Source: Stagnihabitans tardus
Lineage (GTDB): Bacteria; Pseudomonadota; Alphaproteobacteria; Rhodobacterales; Rhodobacteraceae
Assembly (NCBI RefSeq): GCF_009925085.1
Contig: NZ_JAABNR010000001.1
Span: forward strand, 62,001-126,000
Direction: 5' to 3'
Length of the DNA stretch: 64,000 nucleotides
Shown here: in pieces, positions 9,939-28,585 of the stretch
Layout of the letters: each line of letters begins with the position of its first letter
Position numbering within the stretch: the first letter of the stretch is position 1
Notes under the pieces: generated by a model
What the model was told of the DNA's origin: nothing
Database searches by the model: none
The model's input: the letters and a program-made list of their open reading frames with translations, nothing else
Translations under genes and position numbers: made by a program

Positions 9939-11483
9939 ATGGAGAACCTTCCCCTGCCTGCCCTGGCCCCGCTGATCCTGGCTGTCGCAGCCTGGGGCCT
10001 GATGCGCCGTCCGGGGCGGCGTCCGGGGGCCTTGCCGCTTGTCGCCGAGATCGCTGGCCTGGCCTCCTTGACCTTGGGCCTTGCGGGGCTTGGGCAGCTT
10101 GTGCTGCGGGGCCCGCTGGAACTTGCCCCCTTTGGAATTGCGCTCATGCGGCTGGATGCGATCAGCGGAGCGCTGTCGGTGCTGGTGGGGTTCACCGGCT
10201 GGATCGTCCTGCGCTTTGCCCGTCGCGCGATGGATGGCGAGGCGCGGGAGGGGCGGTTCCATGCCCTGACGCTTGCGGCCATCGCTTCGGTCATGGTCGT
10301 GATCCAGGCCGCCAACCTGCCCCTGGTCCTTGCGGGCTTCGTGGCCCTGGCGCTGGTTCTGCGCCAGCTTCTCTTGTTCTACCCCGAGCGGCCAGAGGCG
10401 CAGCGGGCGGCGGCCAAGTTCATCCGGGTCTGGGCGGCGGGCGATGTGGCGCTGGCGATGGCCATCGGGCTCTTGGGACTGGGCACAGGCACGGTCGAGA
10501 TCGCGGGCCTGAACCGGGTGGCAGAGCTGGAGGGCGCGGCAGTGCCGGGGCTGTGGCTTCTGGCGCTTGCGGCGGTGCTGAAGACCGCGAGTTTTCCGCT
10601 GCATGGCTGGCTGACCGAGGTGATGGAGGCGCCGACCCCGGTCTCGGCCCTGTTGCATGCGGGGATCATCGCGGCGGGCGGCTTCATGCTGATCTCGCTG
10701 GCGGGGCTGGTGCAGCAAAGCCCCGGGGTCATGGCGGCCCTTGTGATACTCGGCGGGTTCACCGCGCTGTTCGGCGCCCTGGTCATGCTGACGCAAAGCG
10801 CGGTCAAGACGGCGCTGGCCTGGTCGACCGTGGCGCAGATGGGCTTCATGCTGCTGCAATGCGGGCTTGGACTTTGGGCGCTGGCGCTTTTGCACATCCT
10901 GGCCCATGCGCTTTACAAGGCCCATGCCTTCCTCGCCTCGGGCGGGGCGGTGCAGACGGTGGCGGCGCAGCGCAAGCCGGGGCCGGTGGCGGTGCCAGGC
11001 CTGCGGGCGGTCGCGCAGTCCTTTGGCCTGGCGCTGGGGCTTTACCTGGTCGTGGCCACGGGCTTTGCCGTGCTGGCCGGAGAGAAGTCGCCCCAGGCGC
11101 TGGCCCTGGGGGCGATGCTGATCTTCGGCGTGTCCTACCTGATCGCCCAGGGCATGGCCGATGCCGCGCCCGGCGCCCTGACGCGGCGGACCCTGGCCGC
11201 CTCTTTCGCCGCAGCCCTGGCCTATTTCGGCTTCCAGGTCCTGGCCGAGATGCTGTGGGGGCCGGTCCTGCCCCCGGCGCCGCAAGTGGGGGCGCTGGAA
11301 GGCGCGCTGATCGTCCTGGCGGTCCTGTCCTTTGGCCTGGTGGCCTTTGCCCAGGCGCTGTTTCCGCTTTGGGCCCATCACCCCTCGACGGCGGGGCTGC
11401 GGGTCCACCTGGCCAATGGGCTTTACCTGAATGCGCTCTTGGACCGCCTGATCGGCGGCTTTCGCAGCCCGATGAAATCCTGA
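9939..11483 (+). CDS. dabB: DAB inorganic-carbon transporter, membrane subunit DabB (NuoL-like)
   Basis: A 514-residue polytopic membrane protein of the proton-conducting NADH-quinone oxidoreductase (NuoL/MrpA-like) family, with about 13-14 hydrophobic segments. Conserved family pieces include FPLHGWLTEVMEAPTPVSALLHAGIIAAGG-type segments (about residues 217-246) and a Lys-rich half-channel helix. It is not part of complex I: there are no other nuo genes and it is followed after 16 bp by dabA. In characterised DAB systems DabB passes cations to drive DabA. A GGAG site precedes the ATG. Confidence 0.88.
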   Translation: MENLPLPALAPLILAVAAWGLMRRPGRRPGALPLVAEIAGLASLTLGLAGLGQLVLRGPLELAPFGIALMRLDAISGALSVLVGFTGWIVLRFARRAMDGEAREGRFHALTLAAIASVMVVIQAANLPLVLAGFVALALVLRQLLLFYPERPEAQRAAAKFIRVWAAGDVALAMAIGLLGLGTGTVEIAGLNRVAELEGAAVPGLWLLALAAVLKTASFPLHGWLTEVMEAPTPVSALLHAGIIAAGGFMLISLAGLVQQSPGVMAALVILGGFTALFGALVMLTQSAVKTALAWSTVAQMGFMLLQCGLGLWALALLHILAHALYKAHAFLASGGAVQTVAAQRKPGPVAVPGLRAVAQSFGLALGLYLVVATGFAVLAGEKSPQALALGAMLIFGVSYLIAQGMADAAPGALTRRTLAASFAAALAYFGFQVLAEMLWGPVLPPAPQVGALEGALIVLAVLSFGLVAFAQALFPLWAHHPSTAGLRVHLANGLYLNALLDRLIGGFRSPMKS

Positions 11484-11499
11484 AACGACGGAGATCGCG

Positions 11500-13857: not shown

Positions 13858-13935
13858 TCGCGGCACAATTCGAACCCTTGGCCGCCATGGGTGCCGCCGA
13901 TCCAGACTGGGTCATAACAACCCTCGGAGGCACCC

Positions 13936-15135
13936 ATGTCGATCGATCTTTCCAGCATTCCCGATGCCCTCGCAGCCGACCCGGGGCTCGCAGCGTCGGT
14001 CTCTGGCTCTGATCTGGCCCAGGGCCTGGCTGCGGCCACCACGCTGTCCAACTTGCTGGCGCAGACGCTGGATGGGCTTGGCGCGAATGCCGATGGACTG
14101 ATCTCGGTGACCGACATCCAGGCGGTCTCGGCCACGATCCAGGCCGATCCCGGGCTCTTCGCCCAGTTCCAACTGGCCCATGGCGACGATGCCAGCTGGG
14201 CGGAGACCGGGTTTCACCTGCTTCAGGGCGATGGCGGGAGCCTCACCTTCAAGGGCCGGAACTTCGTCGACACCGTGGCCGACGGGATGTTCCACTTCGG
14301 TTTCGCCACGGTGGGGGGGAAGTTCCTGAACGAGGATGGCGCGCTGAGCCGGACGGTGGAAAAGGTTGCGGCCTGGGTGAACTACTTCGTCAATGGGGTG
14401 GTGGCCTTCCAGGGCACGGCGCAGGACGACAGGCTGGAAAGCGGCGCCTATAGCGCGGTCTTCACGGGGGCGGAGCACGAGCTCTGGTTGATGGGAGCCG
14501 GGAATGACCGGGTCTCGGCGGGTATCGGCAACGACACGATCCACGGCGGCATGGGAAGCGACGCGCTCCTGGGCGACGGTGGCAACGACAGCATCATGGG
14601 CGAAGCGGGCGCGGACCTGCTGCAAGGCGGCGCGGGGGCGGACAGTCTCTACGGCGGGGCGGATGCGGACCGGGTCCTTGGTGGCGAAGGCGCGGACCTG
14701 CTGTCGGGCGGCGACGGCGCCGACTTCCTGCGCGGCGGCACGGGGGCGGACAGTCTTTACGGCGGAGCGGGGGCGGACCGGCTGCTGGGCGAAGAGGGCG
14801 CCGACCTCTTCGAAGGCGGCGCGGGGGCGGATCGCTTCGTGCTGACCGAGACCGTGCAGGCCTGCGACGTGATCGTCTTGCGCAGCGGCGACAGCGGGGC
14901 CACGGCCATGACGGCGGATCTCGTCCAGGGGTTCGTCTCGGGCATCGACAAGATCGACCTGACCGATCTGGGGCCGATCTCTTTCGAGACGGGGGGATTT
15001 TCGGCCTCCGGAGCCTCGGCCCATTACGACGGGCTGGCCTTGCGGATCGACACCACGGGCGATGGGACTTGCGACATGATGATCCGCTTCCAGGGCCTGG
15101 CGACGCTGTCGGCCAGCGATCTCTTGCTGGTCTGA
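13936..15135 (+). CDS. RTX calcium-binding protein 1, probable T1SS substrate
   Basis: 399 residues without a signal peptide. A helical N-terminal part (1-160) includes an EF-hand-like LGANADGLISVTDI stretch. About residues 190-305 are glycine- and Asp-rich nonapeptides of the GGxGxDxLx type (for example GGAGADSLYGGADADRV), which fold as a calcium-binding parallel beta-roll. The C-terminus ends in SASDLLLV, an Asp followed by hydrophobic residues as in type I secretion signals. No recognisable enzymatic domain. No exporter is adjacent. Confidence 0.88.
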   Translation: MSIDLSSIPDALAADPGLAASVSGSDLAQGLAAATTLSNLLAQTLDGLGANADGLISVTDIQAVSATIQADPGLFAQFQLAHGDDASWAETGFHLLQGDGGSLTFKGRNFVDTVADGMFHFGFATVGGKFLNEDGALSRTVEKVAAWVNYFVNGVVAFQGTAQDDRLESGAYSAVFTGAEHELWLMGAGNDRVSAGIGNDTIHGGMGSDALLGDGGNDSIMGEAGADLLQGGAGADSLYGGADADRVLGGEGADLLSGGDGADFLRGGTGADSLYGGAGADRLLGEEGADLFEGGAGADRFVLTETVQACDVIVLRSGDSGATAMTADLVQGFVSGIDKIDLTDLGPISFETGGFSASGASAHYDGLALRIDTTGDGTCDMMIRFQGLATLSASDLLLV

Positions 15136-15153
15136 CCCCCATTTGGACATGAA

Positions 15154-15188
15154 AAAAGGGGCGGCAGGGAAATCCCCGCCGCCCCTTT
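15154..15188. terminator. Bidirectional terminator between RTX 1 and GTA g15
   Basis: AAAGGGGCGGC and GCCGCCCCTTT form an 11-bp stem with A-run on the left and T-run on the right, serving the convergent RTX gene and the GTA operon end. Confidence 0.85.
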
Positions 15189-15207
15189 GTGTTTTGCGCC
15201 CTTGGCT

Positions 15208-18200
15208 TCAGACCGTGACCGTCACCGCAGGCCCTGCCCCATACCGGGTCGAGACCTGGGCCACCGCGATCGTCACCGCTCCGGTCACGCCATCCTCGGC
15301 CTGCATCACCGGCGTATAGGCCCAGGCGGGCAAGGCGCTGACCTCTTGCCGCAGGACCGTGGTGCCTTGCGAGACCGTGATCTCGTAGAGCTCGCTTTCT
15401 TCCCCCAGCGGCACTTCAACGCTTTGCCAGCTGTCGCCGTCGATCCGGGTCCGCCGGATCCAGGCCAGTTGGATCAACCCTCCCACCGCCCCCGTGGCCT
15501 CGAGATGCGAAACCGAGTAGGGTCGTAATCCGATGCCGTCGAAGGCCAGGCTTCGGCTGACGACCTTGGCATCGGCAAAACCCCGCTCCAGGGCGCCGAC
15601 CCGGTAATTCCGCGTCAGCCCCCGAGCCGAGAGCGGCAAGTCGATTTGCGGCACCGCGCCATCCAGCAGCACGAAGTAGCTGCCCGCCGGCCAATGGTCC
15701 GGCGCCACACCATCCGTCCCCGCCTGCCCCCTCAGCCGCACGCGGATGTCATAGGTGCGCGGCGCGACGAGGGTGGCCTCCTGGAACTGGATGATCTCCC
15801 AGTTGCCCGCCGTCCCATCCCCGATGGCCGCCACATTGACCCCGTTCAGCACATCGTCCTCCGAGGCCGAAGACAGCGTGCCCGAAGACAGTTTGACCCG
15901 CAGGGCAGGCCCCCGGTCCCAGACGCCCGAAGGCGCCGAGGCGATCTCGGTCATGGTGATGCCCAGGATCGAGGGCACGTCCAGGGCACGGTTCAGCGAG
16001 AACCCATCGACGCTGGCCGAACTCCAGACCGCGATCGAACCAGACCATGGGCTGACCGTCGCCGCGACATGGGGCGCGACAGGGTCTTCGCTGCCGGTCA
16101 GGAGAGGAAGATCCATGAACAGCGGGAAGACCTGCGAGGCGGCCGCACGGACCGCCGCGCGCGAGGTGGTGGAGTCGATATCCTCGGCCGGAAGATAGGC
16201 GCCCTGATCGACCCGGACGGCCTCCATCAAGAGCTGCTCGCCCGCCTCGACCTTGTCGATGCGGTAGGACTGGCCATCAAGCTTGACGAGATCCCCCGCC
16301 CCGATCCCCAGCATGGAGCGCGGCAGACCCAGCCGCACCCCATCCCTTGCCACGCGCGACTCGACCAGCCAGCGCTCGGCGATGGTGCGCGCCTCGGGAT
16401 TGGTCAGTTGCAGGGTCAACTCCGAGCCCGCAACCGCCGAAGAGGTCTCATCGGGGAAGATCGCCTCGGCGCTGCGGGTCTCATAGTCCCCTTCGGCCTC
16501 GACATAGCTGAGCCGGATCCGGCCCGGGGTCTCGACCACGCTGGCCCGCGCGGCCTCGATCCCGCTGTCCAGGTCGGACGAGATCGCCAGCTCGGCCCGG
16601 TCGAGCGAGGTCGCCGCAAGACCGCTGCGCAGCGTGAACCGCAGAACGCCCTCGCGCTCGGCGATGTTCAGTCCATAGGCCGTAACCAGGGGCTGCAGCG
16701 CCTGGCGCGCCGAACCAATGTCGTTGACCGTATAGCCCCGCACCAGGGCATGGGCTCCCGAGGCATCGATGCCGTCCACCAGCCCGGCATCGCCGCAAAT
16801 ATCAGCGACAAGCGCCGAAAGCGGCAATCCTCCGGTGCGCCCGTTCAGCCAGTGGCCATGCGCATAGTTAACGCCATCCGACCACAGGTCACCATCGGTC
16901 GGGAACTGCGGGAAGGGCCGCGCATCCCAGGCCCAGACATGGGCCCGCGACATGTCCAGCATGCGACCGCTGTAGAGGGTCGCCGCCGGATTGTTGGCTG
17001 CGTCACCCCAATAGGCGTTCACAGCCCGCATGTATTGCAGCTGGATCAGGTCATCGCGCCTCCCGTTCGATGCGCGGGGCAGCGCCGATTCCGAGGAATA
17101 GGCGTCAAGGAACAGGTTCGGCTGGTTGGTCGCCTTGTCGATGGCCGCGCAGCCGTATTCCGTGAACCAGATCGGCTTCGACCCCGGCACCCAGCCCGTC
17201 GCCGTCGCCTGCCGCACACCCGCGATACGGGGATGGTGCGCATGGCTCCACCATCCCGTCAGATCCTTTTTCCGATAGACCCAAGCCTCTCCGTAAGCGC
17301 CATCTTCGATGGGCTGGCGCAACTGGGCAGCCGCCGCGACATCCGAGGCATAGAACCAGTCATAGTTCTCGCCCCCTGCCACGTTGGCCTTGAGATAGTC
17401 GAGGTTGTAGATCGACCCGTAGGACGCATCCAGATGGTCCGACCCATCGCGCCAATCCGACAGGGACATGTAGTTGTCGATCCCAACGAAATCGACATTG
17501 GCATCGGCCCAGAAGGCATCGAGCGGGAAATAGAGGTTCCCGTCGACCTGGTATGACCCATATTCCGACCAGTCCGCCGCATAGCTGATCTTGGTTCCGG
17601 CACCCAGGATGCCGCGCACATCGGCCGCCAGTTGCCGCAACGCCTCGACCATGGGGAAGCTGCCTCCGGTCCCGCGGATTTGCGTCAGGCCCCGCAGTTC
17701 GGAGCCGACGCAAAAGGCATCGACCCCACCCGCCAGCGCGCAAAGATGCGCATAGTGCAGGATGAAACGGCGATAGCCCCAATCTTCGGTCCCGGTGTAG
17801 ACGACTTCGCCCGAGGCATGGCTGAACTGCGACGGCAGGGCGCTTCCCATGAAAGCCGCAACCTCGGCCTCGGCCGCTGCCGTCGCATCGGGCGACCCGG
17901 CGCGACCCGGCGCAACCGACAACGTGATCCGGCCGCGCCAGGGCAAAACGGGCTGGGTCCCCGCATCCGACCAGGGGTCCGGCAGAGTGTTGCCCGCAAT
18001 TTGCTCCATCAGCACGAAGGGATAGAACATCACGGCCTTGCCGGCGCCCTGGATCGCCTGGATTGCCTCGACCACCGATTGATCGGTCGGCGTGCCGCCG
18101 TAGATCACCTTGCCCCCGACCGAGGGCAGAACCTGCGCCGTGGCCCGTGTCAGGCCCGAGACCCTCCAGGGCATCTCGGCTCCATCCGTCGCCGCTTGAT

Positions 18201-19092
18201 CCACCTTGGGACGCAGTTTGCATTGGCTCGCACGAAGGTCGTCGCCAAACCAGCTGGTGACCAACGAGACCGACTCGACCCGAGGCAGTTCCTCGCCCAA
18301 TTGGTCCAGAGACTGGGAGAAGTCCGTGCGGTCTTCCAGCGTGTGAACATTGACCGAAAGGCTGACCCCCGGCCCGTCGTTGAAGCTGACCGGAGTCGTC
18401 GCCAGCGCATATTCCCCCGTCCCGGGGATCAGTGCCACACCCTTGACCACGTCGGCCAGGTCGGCCGCAGCTTCCTGTGTGCCCTTGAAGATTTCAAAGG
18501 TGAATTGCGGCACCCGGTTGCCGAAGCGGCTCAGGTCCAGGTCCTCGATCACCACATAGGCCACGCCGCGATAGCTGGGCGCCTGCCCTGCCCCTTCGAC
18601 CGCCTCGATCTTGGGATCGGGCATCTGGTCCTCGGAGCCCGGATAGAAGCGCAGGTCCAGGCTGCCCTTGGGCACCTCCATCCCATCGGCCCAGACGCGC
18701 CCCAGCCGCCGCGCCTCGTCCTGACAAAGCGCAATCGCCAGGCTGATCGTATAGCTGTAGCTGGTCGAAGCCGGGCGCGGCGAGCCCTTGGAGCCCTGCG
18801 ACCGATTCGCGGTCTCGAGGAACCGCGTGGCCCAGATGACCTCTCCCGAAACCCGCATCCGCCCCCAGACCCGGGGGATCGGCGCACCCTCGCTGGCCGA
18901 GGTCAGGGGAAAGCGCTGGATCCTCCCCTGTTCCACCGGGGCCGAACCGGCGCCAAGGATGCGCTGGTCGATGGCCTGCCCGATGGTGGCCCCGACGGCC
19001 CGCCCGATCACGGCTCCGGAAAGACCCAGGACCGTCCCGCCAAAGCCGGACCCCAAAGCTGCCCCTGCCGCCGACAGAAGAATCGTCGCCAT
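15208..19092 (-). CDS. g15: GTA g15, tail fibre / host-specificity protein
   Basis: A 1294-residue protein, last gene of the GTA structural operon and homologous to R. capsulatus GTA gp15. The N-terminus is a glycine/alanine-rich membrane-like segment; a GTA TIM-barrel glycosidase-like domain spans roughly residues 420-720 (FWADANVDFVGIDNYM, WFTEYGCAAIDK), followed by a phage tail-3-type domain (about 750-930). In the characterised particle this protein forms the tip/megatron contacting the recipient. The frame is intact and of normal length, although the upstream head genes are missing. Confidence 0.93.
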   Translation of the reverse strand: MATILLSAAGAALGSGFGGTVLGLSGAVIGRAVGATIGQAIDQRILGAGSAPVEQGRIQRFPLTSASEGAPIPRVWGRMRVSGEVIWATRFLETANRSQGSKGSPRPASTSYSYTISLAIALCQDEARRLGRVWADGMEVPKGSLDLRFYPGSEDQMPDPKIEAVEGAGQAPSYRGVAYVVIEDLDLSRFGNRVPQFTFEIFKGTQEAAADLADVVKGVALIPGTGEYALATTPVSFNDGPGVSLSVNVHTLEDRTDFSQSLDQLGEELPRVESVSLVTSWFGDDLRASQCKLRPKVDQAATDGAEMPWRVSGLTRATAQVLPSVGGKVIYGGTPTDQSVVEAIQAIQGAGKAVMFYPFVLMEQIAGNTLPDPWSDAGTQPVLPWRGRITLSVAPGRAGSPDATAAAEAEVAAFMGSALPSQFSHASGEVVYTGTEDWGYRRFILHYAHLCALAGGVDAFCVGSELRGLTQIRGTGGSFPMVEALRQLAADVRGILGAGTKISYAADWSEYGSYQVDGNLYFPLDAFWADANVDFVGIDNYMSLSDWRDGSDHLDASYGSIYNLDYLKANVAGGENYDWFYASDVAAAAQLRQPIEDGAYGEAWVYRKKDLTGWWSHAHHPRIAGVRQATATGWVPGSKPIWFTEYGCAAIDKATNQPNLFLDAYSSESALPRASNGRRDDLIQLQYMRAVNAYWGDAANNPAATLYSGRMLDMSRAHVWAWDARPFPQFPTDGDLWSDGVNYAHGHWLNGRTGGLPLSALVADICGDAGLVDGIDASGAHALVRGYTVNDIGSARQALQPLVTAYGLNIAEREGVLRFTLRSGLAATSLDRAELAISSDLDSGIEAARASVVETPGRIRLSYVEAEGDYETRSAEAIFPDETSSAVAGSELTLQLTNPEARTIAERWLVESRVARDGVRLGLPRSMLGIGAGDLVKLDGQSYRIDKVEAGEQLLMEAVRVDQGAYLPAEDIDSTTSRAAVRAAASQVFPLFMDLPLLTGSEDPVAPHVAATVSPWSGSIAVWSSASVDGFSLNRALDVPSILGITMTEIASAPSGVWDRGPALRVKLSSGTLSSASEDDVLNGVNVAAIGDGTAGNWEIIQFQEATLVAPRTYDIRVRLRGQAGTDGVAPDHWPAGSYFVLLDGAVPQIDLPLSARGLTRNYRVGALERGFADAKVVSRSLAFDGIGLRPYSVSHLEATGAVGGLIQLAWIRRTRIDGDSWQSVEVPLGEESELYEITVSQGTTVLRQEVSALPAWAYTPVMQAEDGVTGAVTIAVAQVSTRYGAGPAVTVTV

Positions 19093-19095
19093 GTC

Positions 19096-19542
19096 TCAGT
19101 CTCCTTTGGGGAAAACGAAATGCCCGGCAATCCGCCGGACCCAAGGGGCCGTCAGCGCGTTTTCAACCACGCCGTGCCCGGTATAGGCATGGATGAAGCG
19201 CGGCGCCGCGCCGCCCTCGCCCACGATGCCCAGATGCTTTGCGACAAAGCCCTGCAGCATGCGAAAGACCACAACGTCACCCGCCTTGAAGTCCGGGCCG
19301 CCCGGCAGCAACCAGCGCCGCGCGGCCTCCAGCATGACCTCGTCGCGCCGCGCCTCCGACCAGTCGACCGTATAGGGCGGCATGGCCTCGGGCTCGGTGC
19401 CCAGAAGCGCCCGCCAGACTCCACGCAGCAGCCCCAGGCAATCCGACCCAACCCCCTTCAACGAGGCCTGGTGCAGATAGGGCGTCCCGATCCAGTCCCG
19501 CGCCTCGGCCACCACATCGGGGCGCCCCATGTTTTCTGTCAT
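19096..19542 (-). CDS. g14: GTA g14, NlpC/P60-type cell-wall peptidase
   Basis: 148 residues of the NlpC/P60 family found in GTA and phage tails, thought to cut peptidoglycan for DNA entry. Catalytic Cys is C35 (GSDCLGLLR) and His is H103 (AKHLGIV), both present. It is preceded by g13 with an ATGA overlap and followed by g15 after 3 bp. Confidence 0.92.
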   Translation of the reverse strand: MTENMGRPDVVAEARDWIGTPYLHQASLKGVGSDCLGLLRGVWRALLGTEPEAMPPYTVDWSEARRDEVMLEAARRWLLPGGPDFKAGDVVVFRMLQGFVAKHLGIVGEGGAAPRFIHAYTGHGVVENALTAPWVRRIAGHFVFPKGD

Positions 19543-20426
19543 TTGAACAGGCTTTCCCCATCATTGGCCCCGCTGGAAATCGGGTAAGAGGTCATCCAGT
19601 CTTCACCCGGGATATGCGGAAAGCCCCGAAAGTTCAGGAAGTTGTTGAACTTTCCCCGGCAGGTCGCCGCCATCTTGTCGCAACCCGCCTCCAGCCGGAT
19701 GACGTCGCCCACCACCGGAGCCACGCCGAAATCCACCCAAAGCTCGATGCGCCGCGTCGCCACATCGTCCCGGTCGAACTTCACCAACCCGACCAGACCC
19801 TCGGACCCGCCGCTCAGCATCCGCGCCCGCCCCCGGTCGAACCAGCCCTCGGTGATCGAGGGCGCGCGGGCGATCCGGTAGACCCCCGGGCTCTCGATCC
19901 CCAGGATCACGGTCTCCAGCGAGAACCCCGCCTGGTCCAGGTCAAAGCGACACCGCCCATCCCCCAGAACCGCCGAGCACGAGCGCTGATAGCTCAACCC
20001 CTGGACCTGGTTCAGCTGATCGGCCAGCCCGCGCAACTCGGCCCGGAAGGCGCCCGAGGACCGGACAACCTCGCCAAAGGCCCCGCGAAAGCTCTTCATC
20101 CGCTGGCTGACATCCTGCCAGTTGACGATCCAGCTCTCGACCTCGGCCCCGTCGAAGCGCCCGGCGATCAGGTCCTCCTCTGTCACCGCCGCATCCGACA
20201 GCGCGCCCATGGCCTCGGTATTGTCCACCGACAGGCCATTGGTCTGCTGCAAGGTCCGCGCCGTCATGCCCGAGGCCGCCTTGAACGTGACCCCCTCGAA
20301 GGTCAGGTCGCGGTCATGATCGGTAAAGCCCAGGACCAGCCCATCCTTGCGTGTCACCGCCCAACAGGTGCTGACCGTCGAGATCCCCGTCCCCAGATGC
20401 GTCAGAAGATCGTCGCGCGCGCTCAT
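19539..20426 (-). CDS. g13: GTA g13, tail hub protein (DUF2163 / phiJL001 Gp84-like)
   Basis: 295 residues. N-terminal DUF2163 and C-terminal Gp84-like region. Four cysteines C150, C159, C249 and C256 (QRSC, GRC, AGC, ATC) are kept, the set proposed to hold an iron-sulfur cluster in the R. capsulatus GTA hub. Overlaps g12 and g14 by ATGA on both sides, so translation is coupled through the tail module. Confidence 0.92.
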   Translation of the reverse strand: MSARDDLLTHLGTGISTVSTCWAVTRKDGLVLGFTDHDRDLTFEGVTFKAASGMTARTLQQTNGLSVDNTEAMGALSDAAVTEEDLIAGRFDGAEVESWIVNWQDVSQRMKSFRGAFGEVVRSSGAFRAELRGLADQLNQVQGLSYQRSCSAVLGDGRCRFDLDQAGFSLETVILGIESPGVYRIARAPSITEGWFDRGRARMLSGGSEGLVGLVKFDRDDVATRRIELWVDFGVAPVVGDVIRLEAGCDKMAATCRGKFNNFLNFRGFPHIPGEDWMTSYPISSGANDGESLFK

Positions 20427-21055
20427 ATCCGCACCTCGATCACCGGAACCTGCGGGATTTCGCCTGCATGAAAGGTGGCGATGGTGACTGCGATCCGGTC
20501 GGTGTCAAAGCGCACCGGCACGTCGAACTCGCAGCCCGCCGTGACCGTGGCCCCCACCGCGGGCGGCAGTTGCAGCGTCACAACCCCCGTCGTCGCATCC
20601 ACCGAGAAATCCGCCCCCGGCACCCGCTCCGACCCATTGACGGCGATCTTCACCGTCCCGGCCACCGGCTTGGTGATCACCCGCGTCCAGCTCCCCGAAC
20701 CCGAGGCATAGGTCTTCGAAAGCTGAAACGTCACCCGCGTCCCATCTCCCGTGCCGATGACCTGATCGGTCGCACTGACCACCAGCGACGGCCGGCAGGT
20801 CTTGTAATCTGCCCAGTCCTTCCAGCGGAACGCATGCAACTGCCCGCGCCGCGCCTCGAAAAAGGTGATCAGCGTGTCGAGGTCATCCAGCGACCGCATC
20901 CCCGCCCCCGCATCGTAGCGGCGGCGGCTGTCCGACCAGGGAGAGTTGCGCTCTTCGAACCCATTGACCAGGGTCACGATCTCGGTCCGGCGCTCCGGGC
21001 CGCCGCTCGACCCCAAAGAGAGGTTCGTCGGATATCTCACATCATGAAATGCCAT
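20423..21055 (-). CDS. g12: GTA g12, distal tail protein (DUF2460)
   Basis: 210 residues with the DUF2460 pattern MAFHDVRYPTNLSLGSSGGP, EIVTLVNGFEERNSPWSDSRRRYDAG and FFEARRGQLHAFRWKDW. Start set at the MAFHDVRYP methionine conserved in GTA homologues; a longer upstream frame would run into g11. Forms the distal tail ring in the known particle. Confidence 0.93.
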   Translation of the reverse strand: MAFHDVRYPTNLSLGSSGGPERRTEIVTLVNGFEERNSPWSDSRRRYDAGAGMRSLDDLDTLITFFEARRGQLHAFRWKDWADYKTCRPSLVVSATDQVIGTGDGTRVTFQLSKTYASGSGSWTRVITKPVAGTVKIAVNGSERVPGADFSVDATTGVVTLQLPPAVGATVTAGCEFDVPVRFDTDRIAVTIATFHAGEIPQVPVIEVRI

Positions 21056-21062
21056 CTTTGCC

Positions 21063-21710
21063 TCACCGATTGCGGTTGCCGCGCGACAGGGCCTGCATGG
21101 CCTGGGCCGCGATCTGGCTCTGGCTGCGCTGGAAACCCGCCACATCCGGGGTCGAAATGTTCATCACCACTGTGACGCCGCCGCCTCCGCCCTGGGCGCG
21201 CACGCCCAGCTTGCCATCGGCGCCACGGGTCAAGGGCATGATCGCCTCGGGCCCCGCCTCGCCCATAAGCCCGGTGCCGCCCCGCATGCCAAAGGCCGTC
21301 GGAGAGCTCACGATGCCGCCTTGCGCAAAGGGCATCACCCGACCCGAGGAAAACGCCCCGCCATTGGCAAAGGCCCCGCCCAGAAGCGAGTTCAACCCAC
21401 CGGCGAGGAACCCGCCGACCGCGTTGCTCACCGGCTTCAGCGCCGTGTTGAAGACCGTCTGGGTCATGCTCCTGGCCAGCCCCCGCAGGGCATCATCCAG
21501 CCGCGAGCCACCGAAGACCACATCGCCGAAGGCCCGCGTCAGCCCGTTGCTGAAGCCCGAGGCCAGGGTGCTGACCTCGCGTCCGGTGAAGACCAGGCTC
21601 TCCTGCATCTTGGACAGCTCGGCTTCAAAGGTCGAAACCATGCCCACCGTCCCGGTCAGCGTCGTCTCAAGCGCCGCGATCTGGTCCGTCAGTTCTGTCA
21701 CTTCCGCCAT
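21063..21710 (-). CDS. g11: GTA g11, short tail tape-measure protein
   Basis: 215 residues, the short tape-measure typical of GTAs with very short-length tails compared with phages. N-terminal helical segment (LTDQIAALETTLTGTVGMV) and a glycine/alanine-rich C-terminal half (GGFLAGGLNSLLGGAFANGG). The ATG at 21710 follows GGAG by 6 bases, better than the upstream methionine at 21722. Its start lies inside the end of g10.1. Confidence 0.9.
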   Translation of the reverse strand: MAEVTELTDQIAALETTLTGTVGMVSTFEAELSKMQESLVFTGREVSTLASGFSNGLTRAFGDVVFGGSRLDDALRGLARSMTQTVFNTALKPVSNAVGGFLAGGLNSLLGGAFANGGAFSSGRVMPFAQGGIVSSPTAFGMRGGTGLMGEAGPEAIMPLTRGADGKLGVRAQGGGGGVTVVMNISTPDVAGFQRSQSQIAAQAMQALSRGNRNR

Positions 21711-21888
21711 TGGGCTCTCCATCGGGGAAAAGGGCCGCCAGCTCTTCCAGCCGCGCCCGAGTGAGCACCGGGGCGGATTTGTCCGCCCCGAGCATGATCC
21801 GCAGTTCGATGGGCGTCAGCTTCCAGAAGACCTCGGGCGTCAGCCGAAGCTCGAAAAGCCCCGCCCGCATCAGGCCCGGCCAATCCAT
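21667..21888 (-). CDS. GTA g10.1, tail assembly chaperone-like small protein
   Basis: 73 residues, matching the TIGR02216/phage tail-assembly-chaperone-6 type found between g10 and g11 in GTAs: MDWPGLMRAGLFELRLTPEVFW then LTPIELRIML. Its end overlaps g11 by 44 bp in another frame, an arrangement reminiscent of tail chaperones encoded ahead of tape-measure genes. Confidence 0.85.
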   Translation of the reverse strand: MDWPGLMRAGLFELRLTPEVFWKLTPIELRIMLGADKSAPVLTRARLEELAALFPDGEPNGGSDRTDGPDRGA

Positions 21889-22208
21889 CAGCTCTCACCC
21901 GGCACCGAAAAGGCCCGCGCCAGCAGCATCGCCGCGACCTTGGCCGCCACCAGGGGTCCCCCGCCGATCTCGACCTTCAAGAGGTCCGCCGCCGTCCCCT
22001 GCCAGCCACCGCCTCGCAAGCCCGCCACGACCAGCATCAGGACATCGCGGGTCGAGAACTTGTGGCTCTCGAACCGCGCGATCATCTCGATCAGGCTGCC
22101 CGCGCCAAGCTGATCCTCCAACTCGGCCAGGGCCCCCAGCGTCAGCTTGGCCACATGAGGCACGCCGTCCAGGTGCAGCGTCACCTCTCCGGTGAAAGGA
22201 TTGGCCAT
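21888..22208 (-). CDS. g10: GTA g10, gene-transfer-agent family protein
   Basis: 106 residues: MANPFTGEVTLHLDGVPHVA, LTLGALAELEDQLGAGSLIEM, and KFSTRDVLMLVVAGLRGGGW. This pattern is specific to GTA and related phage tail regions (tail assembly chaperone-like). One-base overlaps with g9 and g10.1 indicate tight coupling. Confidence 0.88.
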   Translation of the reverse strand: MANPFTGEVTLHLDGVPHVAKLTLGALAELEDQLGAGSLIEMIARFESHKFSTRDVLMLVVAGLRGGGWQGTAADLLKVEIGGGPLVAAKVAAMLLARAFSVPGES

Positions 22209-22621
22209 CAGAGCGCCGTGAAGGTCAGGGCGCCCGCCGAGGCCAGGGCCATGTCATAGGTGGCCTCGCCGTTGTAGGTGCCCGCATATTCGATCGAGGT
22301 GATCTGGAAGGCGCCCTCGACGATTCCGAACGAGGGGATGACGACCTGGAAATTCGGCATCACCCCGTCGAAGAAGATCTGCCGCGCCCTTGCGTCGGTA
22401 TTGGCATCGCGGAAAACGCCCGACCCCGACAGCGCCGCCGATTTCACCCCGGCGCCGCCCAGCAGTTCCCGCCAGCCGCCCGAGCTTTCCAGCGTCGTCA
22501 CATCCACGGTTTCGGCGTTGAAGGTCAGCCGCGTGGCGCGAAGCCCCGCCAGCGTTTCATAGCTCCCGCTCCCCGTCTGATCGACCTTGATCAGCAGGTC
22601 CTTGCCGCTTTGAACAGCCAT
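22208..22621 (-). CDS. g9: GTA g9, major tail tube protein (TP901-1 type)
   Basis: 137 residues of the phage TP901-1 major tail protein family: MAVQSGKDLLIKVDQTGSGSY, TFNAETVDVTTLESSGGWRELL, and the closing EGAFQITSIEYAGTYNGEATYDM. Complete. It now follows a truncated g8 remnant instead of an intact g8. Confidence 0.92.
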   Translation of the reverse strand: MAVQSGKDLLIKVDQTGSGSYETLAGLRATRLTFNAETVDVTTLESSGGWRELLGGAGVKSAALSGSGVFRDANTDARARQIFFDGVMPNFQVVIPSFGIVEGAFQITSIEYAGTYNGEATYDMALASAGALTFTAL

Positions 22622-22624
22622 GTC

Positions 22625-24070
22625 TTACTCCGTAAGGTTGATTGGAGCCCGTCCGACACGGCGAAATCCCGTGTCGAAACCAGGCGGGCAAACATCGATC
22701 AGAAGGCGACACGCGCCCGGAAGGTCAGGTCGATCCGCCGGGCGTCCCCGGTGTTCAGGCGCTTGGCCGTGGCGCGCAGGAAATAAAGCCCCACAAGCGC
22801 GCCCCGGGTCAGGGTCAGCTGCGCACCGACCAGGGCATCCGAGACCTCGGCCGCGACCGTCTTGGCCGTCATGAAGCCATTGGCATCGCTGATGACCGAG
22901 ACGGTGAACACATGGCAGGCCCAGAAGCGCCCGCTTCTCATCCGCCGTCAGGAAGTCCGCCCCCGCGACGCGTGCCCAAACCTGGTCACGTTCCACGGCC
23001 AGCGCCGGCACCTGGTCCAGGTCCGGCTTCAGCTCGACCGCCTCGCCGGTGAAACCGCTCAGCCAGGACGACAAAGCCGCCGTCACCCGCGTTGCCAGGG
23101 GCAGAACCGTCAGGCGGAAGAAAGCCCGGTTGGCCTCCTGGTAATTGGCGTAGGTCGCATCCCCCGGAATGCCGATCAGCATGGGCGGCACGCCAAAGGC
23201 GATGCAGATCTCCCGCGCCGCCGACAGCTTCGTCTCATGGAACTCCATGTCACTGGGAGAGAACCCCATCGGCTTCCAGTCCAAGCCCCCTTCCAGCAGC
23301 ATCGGCCGCCCCGCATTCCGCGCGCCCTGGTGATGGGCCTCGATCTCGCCCACCAGCCGCTCGTATTGCTCGTTGGTCAGCGTCCCCGCCCCATCGGTCC
23401 CCTTGAAGACCATGGCGCCCGAAGGCCGCGCCGCATTGTCCAGCAGCGCCTTGGACCAGGTCGCGGCCGAGGAATGGACATCCACCGACACCGCCGCCGC
23501 CTGCATGGGCGAGAGCCCGTAATGGTCGTCCTGCGGATGAAAGCTCTTGATATGGCAGATCGGCTGATATTCCGCCGAGACCGCAAAGCGATGCGTCCGC
23601 CCGTTGACGACATAGTCATAGGCCGCAGGCCAGCCATCCGCCCCCGGCACCACGTTCATCCGGTCCGAGCGCAAGACATGCAGCTCCCCCGGCAGCGCGC
23701 CCGTTCCCGGCACCGCCTCGACATAGGCATTCCCGGTCAAGAGCAGATGCCCATAAAGCGCCTCCAGCAGTTCCGCCCGCCCCTGGTGGGCATTGGGCTG
23801 CCGGATCAGCTCGGACACCGGATGCAGGTCATAGCGCCGCCCCTGGTCCTGCAAGACCAAAGGCAAGGCCGCCGCCGCCTCCGAGATCAGCTTGACCGCC
23901 CGGAACCCGATGGGATTGCCCAGGAAGCCCGATTTCATCAGGCTCACCGCATCCCGGGGCGACCAAGCCACCCGCCCCGAGGAGCCCCAAGCCACCACCC
24001 GCCCGACGGCGGAGGCCTTCTTTTCGACCACGGGAGACCCCGCGCCGCGCCTCAGAAAATCCAGGACCAT
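22625..24070 (-). CDS. g3: GTA g3, portal protein, 3' end replaced by deletion
   Basis: The frame encodes 481 residues. Residues 1-386 are HK97-type portal protein (SGRVAWSPRDAVSLMKSGF, NPIGFRAVKLISEAAAALPLV, GDATYANYQEANRAFFRLTV), ending in DEKRALLGLP, where GTA portals have only about 10-15 residues left. From residue 387 the frame reads out-of-frame g8 DNA for about 95 codons to a chance stop. So the protein has lost its natural C-terminus and gained an unrelated tail. GTA portals are normally about 395 residues. Confidence 0.88.
   Translation of the reverse strand: MVLDFLRRGAGSPVVEKKASAVGRVVAWGSSGRVAWSPRDAVSLMKSGFLGNPIGFRAVKLISEAAAALPLVLQDQGRRYDLHPVSELIRQPNAHQGRAELLEALYGHLLLTGNAYVEAVPGTGALPGELHVLRSDRMNVVPGADGWPAAYDYVVNGRTHRFAVSAEYQPICHIKSFHPQDDHYGLSPMQAAAVSVDVHSSAATWSKALLDNAARPSGAMVFKGTDGAGTLTNEQYERLVGEIEAHHQGARNAGRPMLLEGGLDWKPMGFSPSDMEFHETKLSAAREICIAFGVPPMLIGIPGDATYANYQEANRAFFRLTVLPLATRVTAALSSWLSGFTGEAVELKPDLDQVPALAVERDQVWARVAGADFLTADEKRALLGLPCVHRLGHQRCQWLHDGQDGRGRGLGCPGRCAADPDPGRACGALFPARHGQAPEHRGRPADRPDLPGACRLLIDVCPPGFDTGFRRVGRAPINLTE
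22654..22676. other. Hairpin between the g8 remnant and g9
   Basis: CGACACGG, 7-nt loop, CCGTGTCG within the 77-bp gap ahead of the abundant tail-tube gene. No T run follows, so an RNA-processing or stability element is more likely than a terminator. Confidence 0.5.
22699..22914 (-). pseudogene. g8: GTA g8 remnant (DUF3168), C-terminal half only
   Basis: About 71 codons in the frame from HVFTVSVISDANGFMTAKTV through ARRIDLTFRARVAF match the C-terminal half of GTA gp8 (tail terminator, DUF3168, usually about 135 residues). The N-terminal half is missing: immediately upstream the DNA is portal-gene sequence in another frame. No start codon with a ribosome site serves this frame. It marks the right-hand end of the deletion. 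Confidence 0.85.
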
Positions 24071-24191
24071 TCAGCCTCTCCTTGATTGCAGGGCCGCCCG
24101 ACGGCCAAACCTGTCCAGTGCCGCGCCCCCAAAGGCGCAGCCCAAGGCCCGCCGAAGCGGCCCCCAAAGGTCAGGCGACCCGCCCAACCCA

Positions 24192-24275
24192 TTTCATTGG
24201 TCGAAAAATATCCACGGGGGTCCTTGGGGGGAGCGTGCTCCCCCCAAGTTGGGGGGTCCGGGGGGCGAAAGCCCC
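24192..24275 (-). repeat. Intergenic repeat (copy 4) inside the GTA operon
   Basis: Inverted core at 24192-24212 (TTTCATTGGTCGAAAAATATCC), then CACGGGGG, hairpin TTGGGGGGAG..CTCCCCCCAA (24224-24247) and a second G6..C5 hairpin. It occupies most of the 258-bp gap between terminase and portal genes. The remainder of that gap holds nothing recognisable. Confidence 0.8.
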
Positions 24276-24328
24276 CGCGGCCTCCGCCGGTAGTCGACAA
24301 GGGCGCAAGCCCGCCGGAGACAACCGGC

Positions 24329-25741
24329 CTAAAGCCCGCGCACCTGCGGCTTGCCGATGCCCTTGGACCCTTCGATCAGCACCTCGGTCAAGGCCCAGAC
24401 CAGCGCATCCATCCTGTCCGGCGAGCCCTTGCCCTGATAGCCCGCATGGGTCATCTGGCACATCTGCTCTTCCAGCTTGGCCAGCCCCCGCACATGGGCC
24501 ACCCGGCCCTGTTCGTAAAGCGCGGCCACCGGTTCGGCCCGCAAGTATTTTCCCTTGGTCGCCGTCACCCGCTTGAAGGGCACCAGCGGATCGATGGACC
24601 TGACCACCTGCTCGACCATCTCGCCGCCCTGGTTGGTCTCCACGACCATCCGGTCGGCATTGTGCCGCTCCATCGCCGCCACCGCCGCCCGGGCCCAGCC
24701 ATCGGGCGAGGCTCCCTTGACCGAGGCATCCTCCAGGACGACTGCCCGCCAGGTGTTGACCGGCCCCTCCGTCATGGCGCCCACGACCACGATGCCGCAT
24801 TCGTCCGAGGCCTTGGTCGAGGTCACCGGCGGGTCCACCGCCACCACGATCCGGTTCAGCCGAGGCACCTCCTCCACCCGGATCGCATCCAGGCGATGAT
24901 GGCTCCAAAGCGCCCCTTCCAGGTCCTCCAACAGCTCGCCCTCCAGCTCCTGCCGCCCCAGGCTGTCCCCGGCATAGCGCGCCGTGACCTCCTCGAGGAA
25001 GCTCTTGGCCAGGTAAGCCTTGTTGGCCGAGGTCGGCGCATGGGTGCTGACCGTCGAGGGGTTCTTCATGATCGCCTTCAGGACGGCCACATTCTGCGGC
25101 GTCGTGGTGACCACCTGCTGGGGATGCTCCCCCAGCCGCAGCGCGAATTGCAGCATGTCCCAGGTCTCCTGGCCCTTCTTCCACTTGGCCAGCTCGTCCA
25201 CCCAGGCCGCATCGAACTGCGGCCCCCGCAAGCTGTCCGGGTCATGGGCGCTGAAAACCATCGCCTCCGCCCCGTTCGGCCAGACGAGCCGTTTCCGCGT
25301 CGCCTGCCACTCCGGCCGTCGATCGGGCGGAGAACACGCGAGAATCCCGCTGTCCCCCATGATCATGACCTCGCGGACCTGGTCCACCGTCTCGCCCACC
25401 AGCGCCACGCGGCGTGCCCGGCCCGGAGCCTCCGGCGTCGGCCCCTCGACCTGGGACCTGACCCATTCCGCCCCGGCCCTTGTCTTGCCCGCGCCCCGGC
25501 CCCCCATGATCACCCAGGTCTTCCAGGCCCCCGGCGGCGGCAACTGATGCGGCAGCGCCCAGAATTCGAAGAGCCAGGGCAGCGACAGAAGCGCATTGTC
25601 CGACAGCCCGCCCAGGAACTCGTCAACCTTCTCCTGCGTCGCGGAGGCAAGCCAGGCGGCGCCCGATCTCGTCCCGGGCGGCAGAAAAGTCGAGCGCGCG
25701 GGTTCCGACAGTCCCGGCAGCCTGTTTGCGGAGTTTATCAA
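24329..25741 (-). CDS. g2: GTA g2, large terminase (ATPase/nuclease)
   Basis: 470 residues in the longest frame. Walker A MGGRGAGKT (79-87), Walker B WVDE (180-183), and nuclease-domain Asp in VAVDPP (D303) are present, along with the late ALVWALTEVL. This motor packages DNA in GTAs. The longest frame begins at a TTG inside g1; no better ATG precedes the ATPase motif, so the true start is uncertain. Intact, although the capsid it would fill is missing from the cluster. Confidence 0.93.
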   Translation of the reverse strand: MINSANRLPGLSEPARSTFLPPGTRSGAAWLASATQEKVDEFLGGLSDNALLSLPWLFEFWALPHQLPPPGAWKTWVIMGGRGAGKTRAGAEWVRSQVEGPTPEAPGRARRVALVGETVDQVREVMIMGDSGILACSPPDRRPEWQATRKRLVWPNGAEAMVFSAHDPDSLRGPQFDAAWVDELAKWKKGQETWDMLQFALRLGEHPQQVVTTTPQNVAVLKAIMKNPSTVSTHAPTSANKAYLAKSFLEEVTARYAGDSLGRQELEGELLEDLEGALWSHHRLDAIRVEEVPRLNRIVVAVDPPVTSTKASDECGIVVVGAMTEGPVNTWRAVVLEDASVKGASPDGWARAAVAAMERHNADRMVVETNQGGEMVEQVVRSIDPLVPFKRVTATKGKYLRAEPVAALYEQGRVAHVRGLAKLEEQMCQMTHAGYQGKGSPDRMDALVWALTEVLIEGSKGIGKPQVRGL

Positions 25742-25946
25742 AACGGCCCCTCTCTTCCTGCATCAACTCGAAAGCGTCCCGCAGATCGCGGGCCAGCGCT
25801 GGCGTTTTTTTGACATCGGCCAAGGTGCCGTCCTTCACCTTCTTCAAGGCGCGCGCCAATTCCTCGGCCGCCTCCCTGAGGAGCGTTTCGGTCACCTCTG
25901 CCAGATCGACGGGGTCTTCATCCCCGGCTGCGAAATGTATGCTCAT
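25623..25946 (-). CDS. g1: GTA g1, small terminase-like protein
   Basis: 107 residues from the ATG at 25946 (MSIHFAAGDEDPVDLAEVTE). Mostly helical and charged, as in GTA gp1, the small terminase homologue that in R. capsulatus lacks sequence-specific packaging. The frame is open to 26069, but the upstream part would overlap the promoter. Ends overlapping the beginning of g2. Confidence 0.82.
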   Translation of the reverse strand: MSIHFAAGDEDPVDLAEVTETLLREAAEELARALKKVKDGTLADVKKTPALARDLRDAFELMQEERGRFDKLRKQAAGTVGTRALDFSAARDEIGRRLACLRDAGEG

Positions 25947-26040
25947 GCCTGATGGACCTGCCTTCCCATAGCCGGAAAAGGAAAAGCGGCGCCGGGCGCT
26001 GTACCCGGGCCGCTTGCCCACCTCTTCCATCATGTCCAAA

Positions 26041-26069
26041 CATATGCCATGGACCGTTCGGAAAGTCAA
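26041..26069 (-). promoter_or_regulatory. Candidate GTA operon promoter
   Basis: On the minus strand TTGACT (26064-26069) and CATATG (26041-26046) are 17 bp apart, about 95 bp upstream of the g1 start and downstream of the CtrA site. Assigned by eye. Confidence 0.5.
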
Positions 26070-26110
26070 ACGAAAAATCGAATGATATCAGCGACTTAGC
26101 GTGCGGGGCG

Positions 26111-26126
26111 TTAACCTCTTGTTAAC
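26111..26126. promoter_or_regulatory. Full CtrA-binding site upstream of the GTA operon
   Basis: TTAACCTCTTGTTAAC fits the TTAA-N7-TTAAC consensus of the cell-cycle regulator CtrA on both strands. It is 165 bp upstream of g1 and 42 bp beyond the candidate -35 box. CtrA is known to be needed for GTA expression in R. capsulatus. It also lies just after the mltG stop. Confidence 0.75.
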
Positions 26127-26150
26127 CACCCGACGCAACACCCCCCGGTT

Positions 26151-27329
26151 TCAGTTGCCGTCGCCCGTCCCCGAGCCATCGCCCTCGGCCCCCGCCGCCT
26201 CCAGCGCGCGCCACTTGGCGACGTTCTTGTTGTGCTCTTCCAGGGTCGAGGCAAAGGCATGGCCCCCCGTCCCATCGGCCACGAAATAGAAGAAATCCGT
26301 CGTCTCGGGGTTCAGCGCGGCCTCGATGGCGGCCTTGCCCGGGTTGCAGATCGGCGTCGCGGGAAGCCCTTGAATCACATAGGTATTCCAAGGCGTCTCC
26401 CGCTTCAGCTCGCTCTGCCGCAAGCCCCGGCCCAGGATCCCCTGCCCCTTGGTCACGCCATAGATCACCGTGGGATCGGTCTGCAGCCGCATCCCGTCGC
26501 GCAAGCGGTTCAGGAAGACCGAGGCCACCTTGCCGCGCTCCTCCGCCACCCCGGTCTCCTTCTCGATGATCGAGGCCATGATGAGCGCCTCCTCCATCGT
26601 CTCATAGGGCAGGCCCTCGGCCCGCTTGGCCCAGGCCTCGGCCAGCGTCGCCGACTGGCTCGCCTGCATCTTGGCGATCAGCGCGGCCCGGTCATCGCCC
26701 TTGGAGACCTCGTACGAATCGGGCGCCAGCACGCCCTCGGCCGGAACCTCCTTGATCTCGCCACTCAGGAAGTCGGCCGCCTTCAGGGCCTCGACGATGT
26801 TCCAGCTCGTCACCCCTTCGGCCAAGGTCACCCGCCAGCGCAGGTCGGGGTCATCGACCGCGTCCTTGTAGACCTGCGGCACCTCGCCCGAGGGGTCGAA
26901 CTTCGCCACCTCGACCAGCCCCGCCGTCGCCGCATCATAGGACCGCAGGATGACCTCGGCCCCCGCCACCCCGATGCGCAGGTTGACATCCTGGCCGCAG
27001 GTCGACTGGCCGCCCACGGTCAGCCGCTCGGCCACCTGCGCCATCGAGATCGCGGGCTCCAGCAAATAGCTCCCGAACTTCAGCTGCCCCGACTTGCCCG
27101 AGTAGGTCGTCCCGATGCGGAAGATCCTGGCATCCGAAATCGCCCCCTGCGCCTCCAGCCCCGCCGAAACCGCACTCATCGAGGCGCCGCGTTCGACCTT
27201 GAAGCAGATGGCCTGGCCGAGCGGCCCCGCCACCTCGTATTGCTTCTGCCCCCAGAGGATCACCCCCCCCAGGGCCAGAAGCGCCACGATGAACAGCGTC
27301 AGCGCATTCGAGGCGACCGAGCGCCACAT
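26151..27329 (-). CDS. mltG: Endolytic murein transglycosylase MltG
   Basis: 392 residues: one N-terminal membrane anchor (residues 8-27, ALTLFIVALLALGGVILW), then a periplasmic YceG domain. Catalytic Glu is E256 in SIIEKETG; VFLNRLRDGMRLQTDPTVIYG and LPATPICNPGKAAIEAALNP are the family signatures. It cleaves nascent glycan strands and is thought to end their elongation. ATG overlaps the fabF stop by one base (TGATG), so it is cotranscribed with fabF. Confidence 0.95.
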   Translation of the reverse strand: MWRSVASNALTLFIVALLALGGVILWGQKQYEVAGPLGQAICFKVERGASMSAVSAGLEAQGAISDARIFRIGTTYSGKSGQLKFGSYLLEPAISMAQVAERLTVGGQSTCGQDVNLRIGVAGAEVILRSYDAATAGLVEVAKFDPSGEVPQVYKDAVDDPDLRWRVTLAEGVTSWNIVEALKAADFLSGEIKEVPAEGVLAPDSYEVSKGDDRAALIAKMQASQSATLAEAWAKRAEGLPYETMEEALIMASIIEKETGVAEERGKVASVFLNRLRDGMRLQTDPTVIYGVTKGQGILGRGLRQSELKRETPWNTYVIQGLPATPICNPGKAAIEAALNPETTDFFYFVADGTGGHAFASTLEEHNKNVAKWRALEAAGAEGDGSGTGDGN

Positions 27330-28585
27330 CAGACTTTGCCCAGGACAAGGCTGGCATTGGTCCCGCCAAAGCCGAAGGAGTTGGACAGCGCCACGTCGAT
27401 TTTGCGCTTGACCGCCTTGTTGGGTGCCAGGTCCAGCTTCGGCGTCACCGCCGGATTGTCCAGGTTGATCGTGGGAGGCGCCACCTGGTCACGGATGGCC
27501 AGGATGCAGAAGATCGCCTCCACCGCGCCCGCCGCCCCCAGAAGGTGCCCGATGGACGACTTGGTCGAGGACATCGTGGCCTTGGCCGCATGCTCGCCCA
27601 GCAAACGCTCCACGGCGCCTAGTTCAATCGTATCGGCCATGGTGCTCGTCCCATGGGCGTTGATGTAATCCACCGCCTCGGGCCCAAGCCCGGCCCGCTT
27701 CAAGGCCATCTGCATCGACCGGAAGCCGCCATCGCCATCCTCGGACGGAGCGGTGATGTGATAGGCATCGCCCGAAAGCCCATAGCCCAGGACCTCGGCA
27801 TAGATCTTGGCGCCGCGCGCCTTGGCGTGTTCGTATTCCTCCAGGACCACGATCCCCGCGCCCTCGCCCATGACAAAGCCATCGCGGTCGGCGTCATAGG
27901 GGCGGCTTGCCTTCTCCGGCTCATCCGCGCGCTTGGACGACAGGGCCTTGCAAGCGTTGAAGCCCGCGATGCCAATCTCGCAGATCGGGCTTTCCGTGCC
28001 GCCCGCCACCATGACATCCGCATCGCCCCACTGGATCAGCCGTGCCGCATCGCCAATCGCATGGGCGCCGGTCGAACAGGCCGTCACCACCGAATGGTTC
28101 GGCCCCTTGAAGCCGAAGCGGATCGAGACCTGCCCTGAAACCAGGTTGATCAGGCTTCCGGGAATGAAGAACGGAGAAACCCTCCGCGCCCCCTTCTCCT
28201 TGATCAGCACGGCGGTCTCGGCGATGTTCTGCAAGCCCCCGATGCCTGACCCGATCATGACGCCGGTCCGGCAGCGCTCTTCTTCATCGGCCGGAACCCA
28301 TCCCGAATCCTGCACCGCCTGCACGGCTGCCGCCATGCCATAGATGATGAAGTCATCGACCTTGCGCTGTTCCTTGGGCTCCATCCAGTCATCCGGATTG
28401 AAGGTCCCGTTCGACCCATCGCCGCGCGGGATCTCGCAGGCATATTGCGTCAGCACGTTCACAGGGTCAAAGCGGGTGATCTTGCCCGCCGCCGACTGAC
28501 CGGCCAAAAGCCGCTCCCAAGTTGCCTCGACCCCGCAGGCCAAAGGCGACACCATCCCCAATCCCGTGACAACAACGCGACGCAT
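27329..28585 (-). CDS. fabF: 3-oxoacyl-ACP synthase II
   Basis: 418 residues from MRRVVVTGLGMVSPL. Catalytic triad visible: C170 (TACSTGAHAIG), H311 (NAHGTSTMADT) and H347 (KSSIGHLLGA). Condenses malonyl-ACP with acyl-ACP in fatty-acid elongation. acpP, fabG and fabD lie about 8-10 kb away on the same strand, separated by the RND and RTX genes; fabF-acpP separation suggests that the intervening block was inserted into an ancestral fabD-fabG-acpP-fabF-mltG run (inference). Confidence 0.96.
   Translation of the reverse strand: MRRVVVTGLGMVSPLACGVEATWERLLAGQSAAGKITRFDPVNVLTQYACEIPRGDGSNGTFNPDDWMEPKEQRKVDDFIIYGMAAAVQAVQDSGWVPADEEERCRTGVMIGSGIGGLQNIAETAVLIKEKGARRVSPFFIPGSLINLVSGQVSIRFGFKGPNHSVVTACSTGAHAIGDAARLIQWGDADVMVAGGTESPICEIGIAGFNACKALSSKRADEPEKASRPYDADRDGFVMGEGAGIVVLEEYEHAKARGAKIYAEVLGYGLSGDAYHITAPSEDGDGGFRSMQMALKRAGLGPEAVDYINAHGTSTMADTIELGAVERLLGEHAAKATMSSTKSSIGHLLGAAGAVEAIFCILAIRDQVAPPTINLDNPAVTPKLDLAPNKAVKRKIDVALSNSFGFGGTNASLVLGKV

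Follow-up and report, generated by a model that had tools for sequence, protein, structure and literature searches.

When examining a 64,000-nucleotide stretch of Stagnihabitans tardus DNA (hereafter, the window, that is, bases 62001-126000 of contig C1 in a 114-contig draft genome of 4.59 Mb), we observed that its minus strand, from position 26069 to position 15208, encodes an RcGTA-like gene cluster consisting of g1, g2, g3, a remnant of g8, g9, g10, g10.1 and g11 through g15. Among 40 relatives searched, the best portal match by far came from Rhodobacter sp. KR11 (G001), in which the cluster is complete; a passage of the 2026 description of this strain as Stagnihabitans lacustris likewise gives its GTA gene cluster as complete and continuous (PMC13209277). 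The features of the window cluster, with identities to KR11, are the following.

25623..26069, minus strand: homologue of g1, full length, 95% identity over 1-148, no Pfam match
24329..25741, minus strand: g2, large terminase, full length, Terminase_6N and Terminase_6C, 92% identity
22913..24070, minus strand: g3, portal, 386 of 394 residues kept, Phage_portal E 8.9e-87, 97% identity
22913..22915 (at 22914), minus strand: deletion junction, g3 codon 386 of 394 joined to g8 codon 62 of 132, placed by blastn and base-level comparison with the KR11 locus (L032)
22699..22914, minus strand: 3' remnant of g8, tail terminator, last 71 of 132 residues and the stop, own start absent
22208..22621, minus strand: g9, tail tube protein, full length, Phage_tail_2 E 1.5e-46, 93% identity
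21888..22208, minus strand: g10, full length, Phage_TAC_11 (GTA-gp10) E 2e-27
21667..21888, minus strand: g10.1, 73 aa, full length, 93% identity, no PHROG match
21063..21722, minus strand: g11, tape measure-like, 219 aa, PHROG tape measure families (best E 6.5e-19), no match in a Pfam search, 94% identity
20423..21145, minus strand: g12, distal tail protein, DUF2460 E 1.9e-88 over residues 34-239, 85% identity
19539..20426, minus strand: g13, baseplate hub-like protein, Phage_phiJL001_Gp84_N and Phage_BR0599
19096..19542, minus strand: g14, NlpC/P60-like protein, NLPC_P60 E 9.5e-4 (under the curated cut-off), PHROG minor tail protein E 6.1e-9
15208..19092, minus strand: g15, GTA TIM-barrel tail protein, 1,294 aa, GTA_TIM E 6.2e-141 and Rcc01698_C

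The passages of one account of RcGTA that deal with these proteins identify g3 as the portal, g8 as the tail terminator, g9 as the tail tube and g12 as the distal tail protein, and place the tail terminator between the stopper and the tail tube (PMC7296036). The g8 remnant matches Tail_completion_gp17 (E 5.9e-14) at profile positions 55-123 of 124 and is 90% identical to KR11 over its 71 codons; the real start of g12 is probably inside the 240 aa ORF. Outside the deletion, the cluster shows the synteny of g1-g15 together with the GTA-specific families GTA_TIM and GTA-gp10, and its gene order and orientation are the same as in the RcGTA-type cluster of KR11, with 92-97% identity for g1-g3 and g9-g11 and 82-89% for g12-g15. 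Common to both genomes are also three outlying genes that, in the S. tardus genome, contain no stops and match KR11 along their whole length or almost so, namely, a holin ORF (GTA_holin_3TM) and its endolysin-like neighbour (Glyco_hydro_108, PG_binding_3) on contig C6, and a gene for a 1,096 aa tail-fibre-like DUF2793 protein on contig C9; these are presumably, as the Pfam name suggests, the lysis and fibre genes of the GTA. Elsewhere in the window, a DabA gene (PF10070) is paired with a gene of the proton-antiporter type, followed further on by a LysR regulator (8953-13857), likely an inorganic-carbon uptake (DAB-like) operon near the GTA cluster, and two RTX calcium-binding repeat proteins are encoded at 13936-15135, directly behind g15, and at 33970-35673, about 8 kb beyond g1.

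Comparison of the reverse complement of window positions 14501-27500 with L032 by blastn yielded only two, abutting matches, 1-4587 to 854-5455 (83.8%) and 4587-12275 to 8710-16348 (81.2%), and the KR11 DNA left unmatched between them, about 3,254 bp, is the sole gap in the alignment of the clusters. Absent from the window relative to KR11 are g3.5, g4 (Peptidase_S78 prohead protease), g5 (Phage_capsid), g6 (Phage_connect_1), g7 (Phage_HCP) and codons 1-61 of g8; g6 and g7 presumably correspond to the adaptor and the stopper of RcGTA. Downstream of the junction, the last eight residues of the portal are replaced by 95 out-of-frame residues, in an ORF of 481 aa that runs to 22625. The original prediction that the capsid block was cleanly deleted is borne out, as a single event, by the one-gap alignment and by the g3-g9 spacing described below, and its placement of the end of the portal at residue 386 near 22913, followed in another frame by the second half of gp8, agrees with the junction at portal codon 386 and the out-of-frame start of the remnant at g8 codon 62. 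Its estimate of about 4 kb for the missing DNA was too high, and its "most of g3" proves to be the portal short of only those eight C-terminal residues; g1, g2 and g9-g15 are, as it stated, still open, across the full extent of their match to KR11.

The KR11 sequences at the two breakpoints, read by eye, have about 1-2 bases in common with the junction context. No repeat was found at the junction itself, and a single 10-base repeat pair flanks it, one copy lying about 470 bp to one side and the other about 300 bp to the other. An IS-mediated deletion was considered and rejected, as no transposase-like ORF was noticed and the junction bears no repeat. In an exact scan of IMG/VR, the 31-base junction was absent, which is weak evidence either way, as records very close to this genome may be missing there.

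The spacing of g3 and g9 was surveyed in 160 portal-bearing loci, namely, the best 80 from genome_contigs (KR11 included) and the best 80 from IMG/VR, two sets that are not independent because part of the IMG/VR loci seem to stem from genomes also represented in genome_contigs. In the 126 of these best loci that contain both genes, the distance from the g3 start to the g9 end is 4,909-5,386 bp, compared with 1,859 bp in the window (genome_contigs, 68 loci, 4,909-5,386 bp; IMG/VR, 58 loci, 4,924-5,241 bp). In another 32 (10 and 22, respectively), the contig ends within 3.6 kb of the portal, too short to tell, and the remaining two, L083 and L117 from genome_contigs, are disrupted otherwise. In 394 genomes of the family, nearly all from different genera, the portal (cut-off E 1e-30) was detected in 319, g9 (1e-15) in 305 and g5 (1e-50) in 316, with all three present in 301 and none in 69. 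At these cut-offs, only two of the 305 g9-bearing genomes are without a g5 match, that of the window and G335; G223 effectively joins them, since what g5 matches there is a distant capsid (36% identity) from a different contig, and G174 has distant capsids only.

Searches of the S. tardus genome yielded no g4-g8 elsewhere; the missing KR11 DNA, used as a query, matched only 113 bp at 69% identity, in the capsid gene of a prophage on contig C8, and a profile search with PF05065 gave that same capsid as the only one in the genome. This is what the proposed check for g4-g7 elsewhere in the genome has come to: no other copy, and the C8 capsid alone. A second GTA locus was rejected on the same searches. 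The C8 prophage (L038 17819-20000 and L039 1-15669) is siphovirus-like and separate from the GTA.

The remaining genes of the cluster are full length, with dN/dS of 0.06-0.25 between the window and KR11; two flanking control genes gave 0.11 and 0.17. The g8 remnant has a dN/dS of 0.142 to KR11, compared with 0.267-0.523 for the same segment in 15 intact-cluster pairs. Its two branches add up to 11 nonsynonymous changes; neutral evolution from the split onwards would have put about 41 on the branch to the window by itself, if each branch accounts for half of dS. Polarisation by five outgroups assigns 109 amino-acid changes in the cluster to the window branch and 144 to the KR11 branch (p 0.03, the window having fewer); the respective numbers are 7 and 18 for g13 (p 0.04) and 4 and 1 for the g8 remnant (p 0.38), the latter a non-significant lean to relaxed constraint. 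The cluster thus displays the picture of recent inactivation, that is, one lesion, no further stops or frameshifts and no excess of amino-acid changes. Given that the g8 remnant is without significant decay and the other genes are full length, the loss looks recent, and the sequence comparison suggests a deletion that is young relative to the split of the window lineage from KR11, with dS to KR11 of 0.16-0.83, mostly larger to the outgroups, making such age estimates rough. Relatives had been proposed at the outset as the means of dating the deletion, and comparison with KR11 gives this rough, relative age.

Beyond the window, we identified ten further clusters with different internal lesions and scattered breakpoints, in unrelated genera.

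G373: g5 codon 335 runs into g15 codon 960; a further ~3.9 kb between g2 and g3
G067: g5 to codon 141 and none of g6-g15 after it, nearly 15 kb having been fetched
G240: g3 codon 229 runs into g15 codon 984
G044, L238 2670-11893: head-block deletion, g3 codon 120 to g10; frameshifts and stops in g2 and tail genes
Gemmobacter caeni DSM 21823, L117 4434-7969: g3.5 codon 58 runs into g15 codon 642
Tabrizicola sp. bin.65 MAG, L083 8176-9427: break at g3.5 codon 75, then g15 from codon 1149 and a cysE-like gene
G305, L253 6129-13138: capsid kept (431 aa open frame), most else eroded
G335: g2 matched from codon 13 onwards and g9 from codon 31, with g3-g8 missing between them; none of g12-g15 found in the fetched stretch
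G223, L257 3949-11718: g2 up to codon 185, followed by g9, which begins at codon 71 and contains one stop; no stops in g10-g15
G018: g2 codon 373 runs into g15 codon 295

This follow-up was limited to genomes in which the portal, g5 and g9 disagree and to the two anomalous loci, while G018 turned up incidentally during a search for g15. Deletions confined to g10-g15 escape such a selection, so that no preference for the head block can be read from these cases. In Gemmobacter caeni, g2 is matched only in its last 51 codons, although 4.4 kb precede, and the Tabrizicola break adjoins an ORF that, by eye, reads like an IS3-type transposase. In G305, no portal, g4 or g7-g10 was matched and only pieces of g6 and g11-g13 were, the opposite of the case in the window; some other clusters have likewise lost the tail and kept head genes. 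G044 seems to represent a more advanced state of decay. In G424, from the same genus as G223, the capsid gives two matches (E about 1e-154), so the head loss in G223, too, looks local. Left out of the count were clusters that end with their contigs (L217, L240-L244 and, likewise, G006); L245 (G023), with about 1.65 kb after g5 in which g6-g8 find no match even at E 0.1, which may be a lesion; G420 (L239), which ends about 0.6 kb after a 118-residue portal fragment; G351, with only g5 codons 187-428; G052, G228, G263, G349 and G411, with short match loci only; and G003, G007, G013 and G014, in-genus genomes without a portal match.

How, then, is the gap in the window to be explained? In a draft of 114 contigs, the capsid block could be present in the cell and have been skipped by the assembler, but this is very unlikely: the junction lies inside a contig of 423,872 bp, the KR11 flanks at the breakpoints share next to nothing, the only repeat is the 10-base pair some way to either side of the junction, and the missing genes were found on no other contig despite a completeness rating of 99.76%. 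The gap being real, the capsid might be supplied in trans by the C8 prophage, with hybrid particles as the outcome. This prophage does have portal, capsid, terminase and integrase-like genes (the integrase-like match being under the Pfam cut-off), but its portal is only 25% identical to the GTA portal (query residues 172-414), its capsid, judging from the short match to the missing DNA, is unrelated to that of the GTA, and joining of head and tail would require g6-g8 as well, which makes such complementation barely credible. A different possibility, which overlaps with the explanation we favour and is a version of it, is that the deletion occurred while the sequenced strain was being grown in the laboratory and does not characterise the natural population; the strain may also be polymorphic for it. 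The recent look of the deletion and the inclusion of only one genome of the species in the comparison fit this origin, and nothing speaks directly against it, but a recent natural loss would look alike here, and we regard a laboratory origin as unlikely.

The remaining alternative is that the head was shed under selection and that g9-g15, together with the fibre and lysis genes, now make a particle similar to a tailocin. F-type tailocins are headless siphophage tails, and the window resembles them in the absence of head genes and the presence of tail genes; moreover, the tail block g9-g15 is conserved and complete, and G223 has independently lost its head genes, with g10-g15 free of stops and a g15 that evolves no faster than that of its congener G424 (72 vs 66 changes). 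However, in the window, unlike in F-type tailocins, the tail terminator is cut, with codons 1-61 of g8 gone from the tail module, and the terminase and portal remain; a working headless tail is unlikely because of the cut in g8, and g1, g2 and g3, useless to a tail, persist. The constraint on the tail genes (dN/dS to KR11 within the range given above), in a cluster whose deletion looks too young to be informative on selection, is equally well explained by recency. Furthermore, the tail tube gene g9 of G223 is itself truncated and contains a stop, the tail block of G044 carries stops and frameshifts after its head deletion, and other clusters have lost the tail instead. A selected headless tail is therefore highly improbable for the window. 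The same low probability applies to the broader proposition that no fewer than three lineages (the window, G223 and G044) lost the head independently of one another with g10-g15 left behind and that, where these genes are open (the window and G223), cells still produce the tail, together with its fibre and lysis genes, as a headless particle that may serve in antagonism or adhesion, and the genes are not simply on their way to decay.

We therefore consider it highly likely that an RcGTA-type cluster was inactivated by one recent deletion and that its bearer is probably a GTA non-producer. Given breakpoints that share 1-2 bases and the lack of a repeat at the junction, the ~3.25 kb would have been lost by illegitimate joining, with at most about two shared bases and no mobile element involved. 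On induction of the GTA programme, no particle would be built; tail proteins may still be made and, with the holin and endolysin-like genes open, induction might still lyse cells. The capsid, the protease, g6 and g7 being gone, no DNA-filled particle is expected from the known structure of RcGTA, and DNA-carrying particles are almost certainly no longer made. The original prediction that the cluster cannot make a capsid holds as well, with g5 gone and no GTA-type capsid elsewhere in the genome.

Loss of a GTA is not without precedent. In the relevant passages of one study, a GTA cluster counts as complete with at least 14 of 17 head-tail genes, and pseudogenised or lost clusters of alphaproteobacteria are already discussed (PMC10883770). 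The window cluster, with g3.5, g4, g5, g6 and g7 absent and g8 halved, falls short of that number and, like the pseudogenised clusters, has lost essential structural genes while their neighbours remain. It differs from most of the ten other broken clusters, which show tail loss or decay, in that it has a single lesion and its other genes are full length. No earlier report of this particular deletion was found in the open-licence PubMed Central literature. GTA loss is thus a known kind of event, and the case in the window looks to have been caught early; the remaining genes would be expected to decay as they have in other species.

Why bacteria keep GTAs, the makers of which lyse, is an open question, and non-producing cheaters are expected. 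The S. tardus lineage is plausibly a young cheater of this kind, or else one for which making GTAs no longer paid off. Pseudogenised clusters may, as a passage of the same study puts forward, represent recently emerged cheater lineages (PMC10883770), a picture that the window cluster would fit well. A natural head mutant with a single lesion, in which the rest of the cluster and the holin, endolysin-like and fibre-like genes are still open, and a related species with a complete cluster make up a pair in which the cost and the gain of a GTA could be tested.
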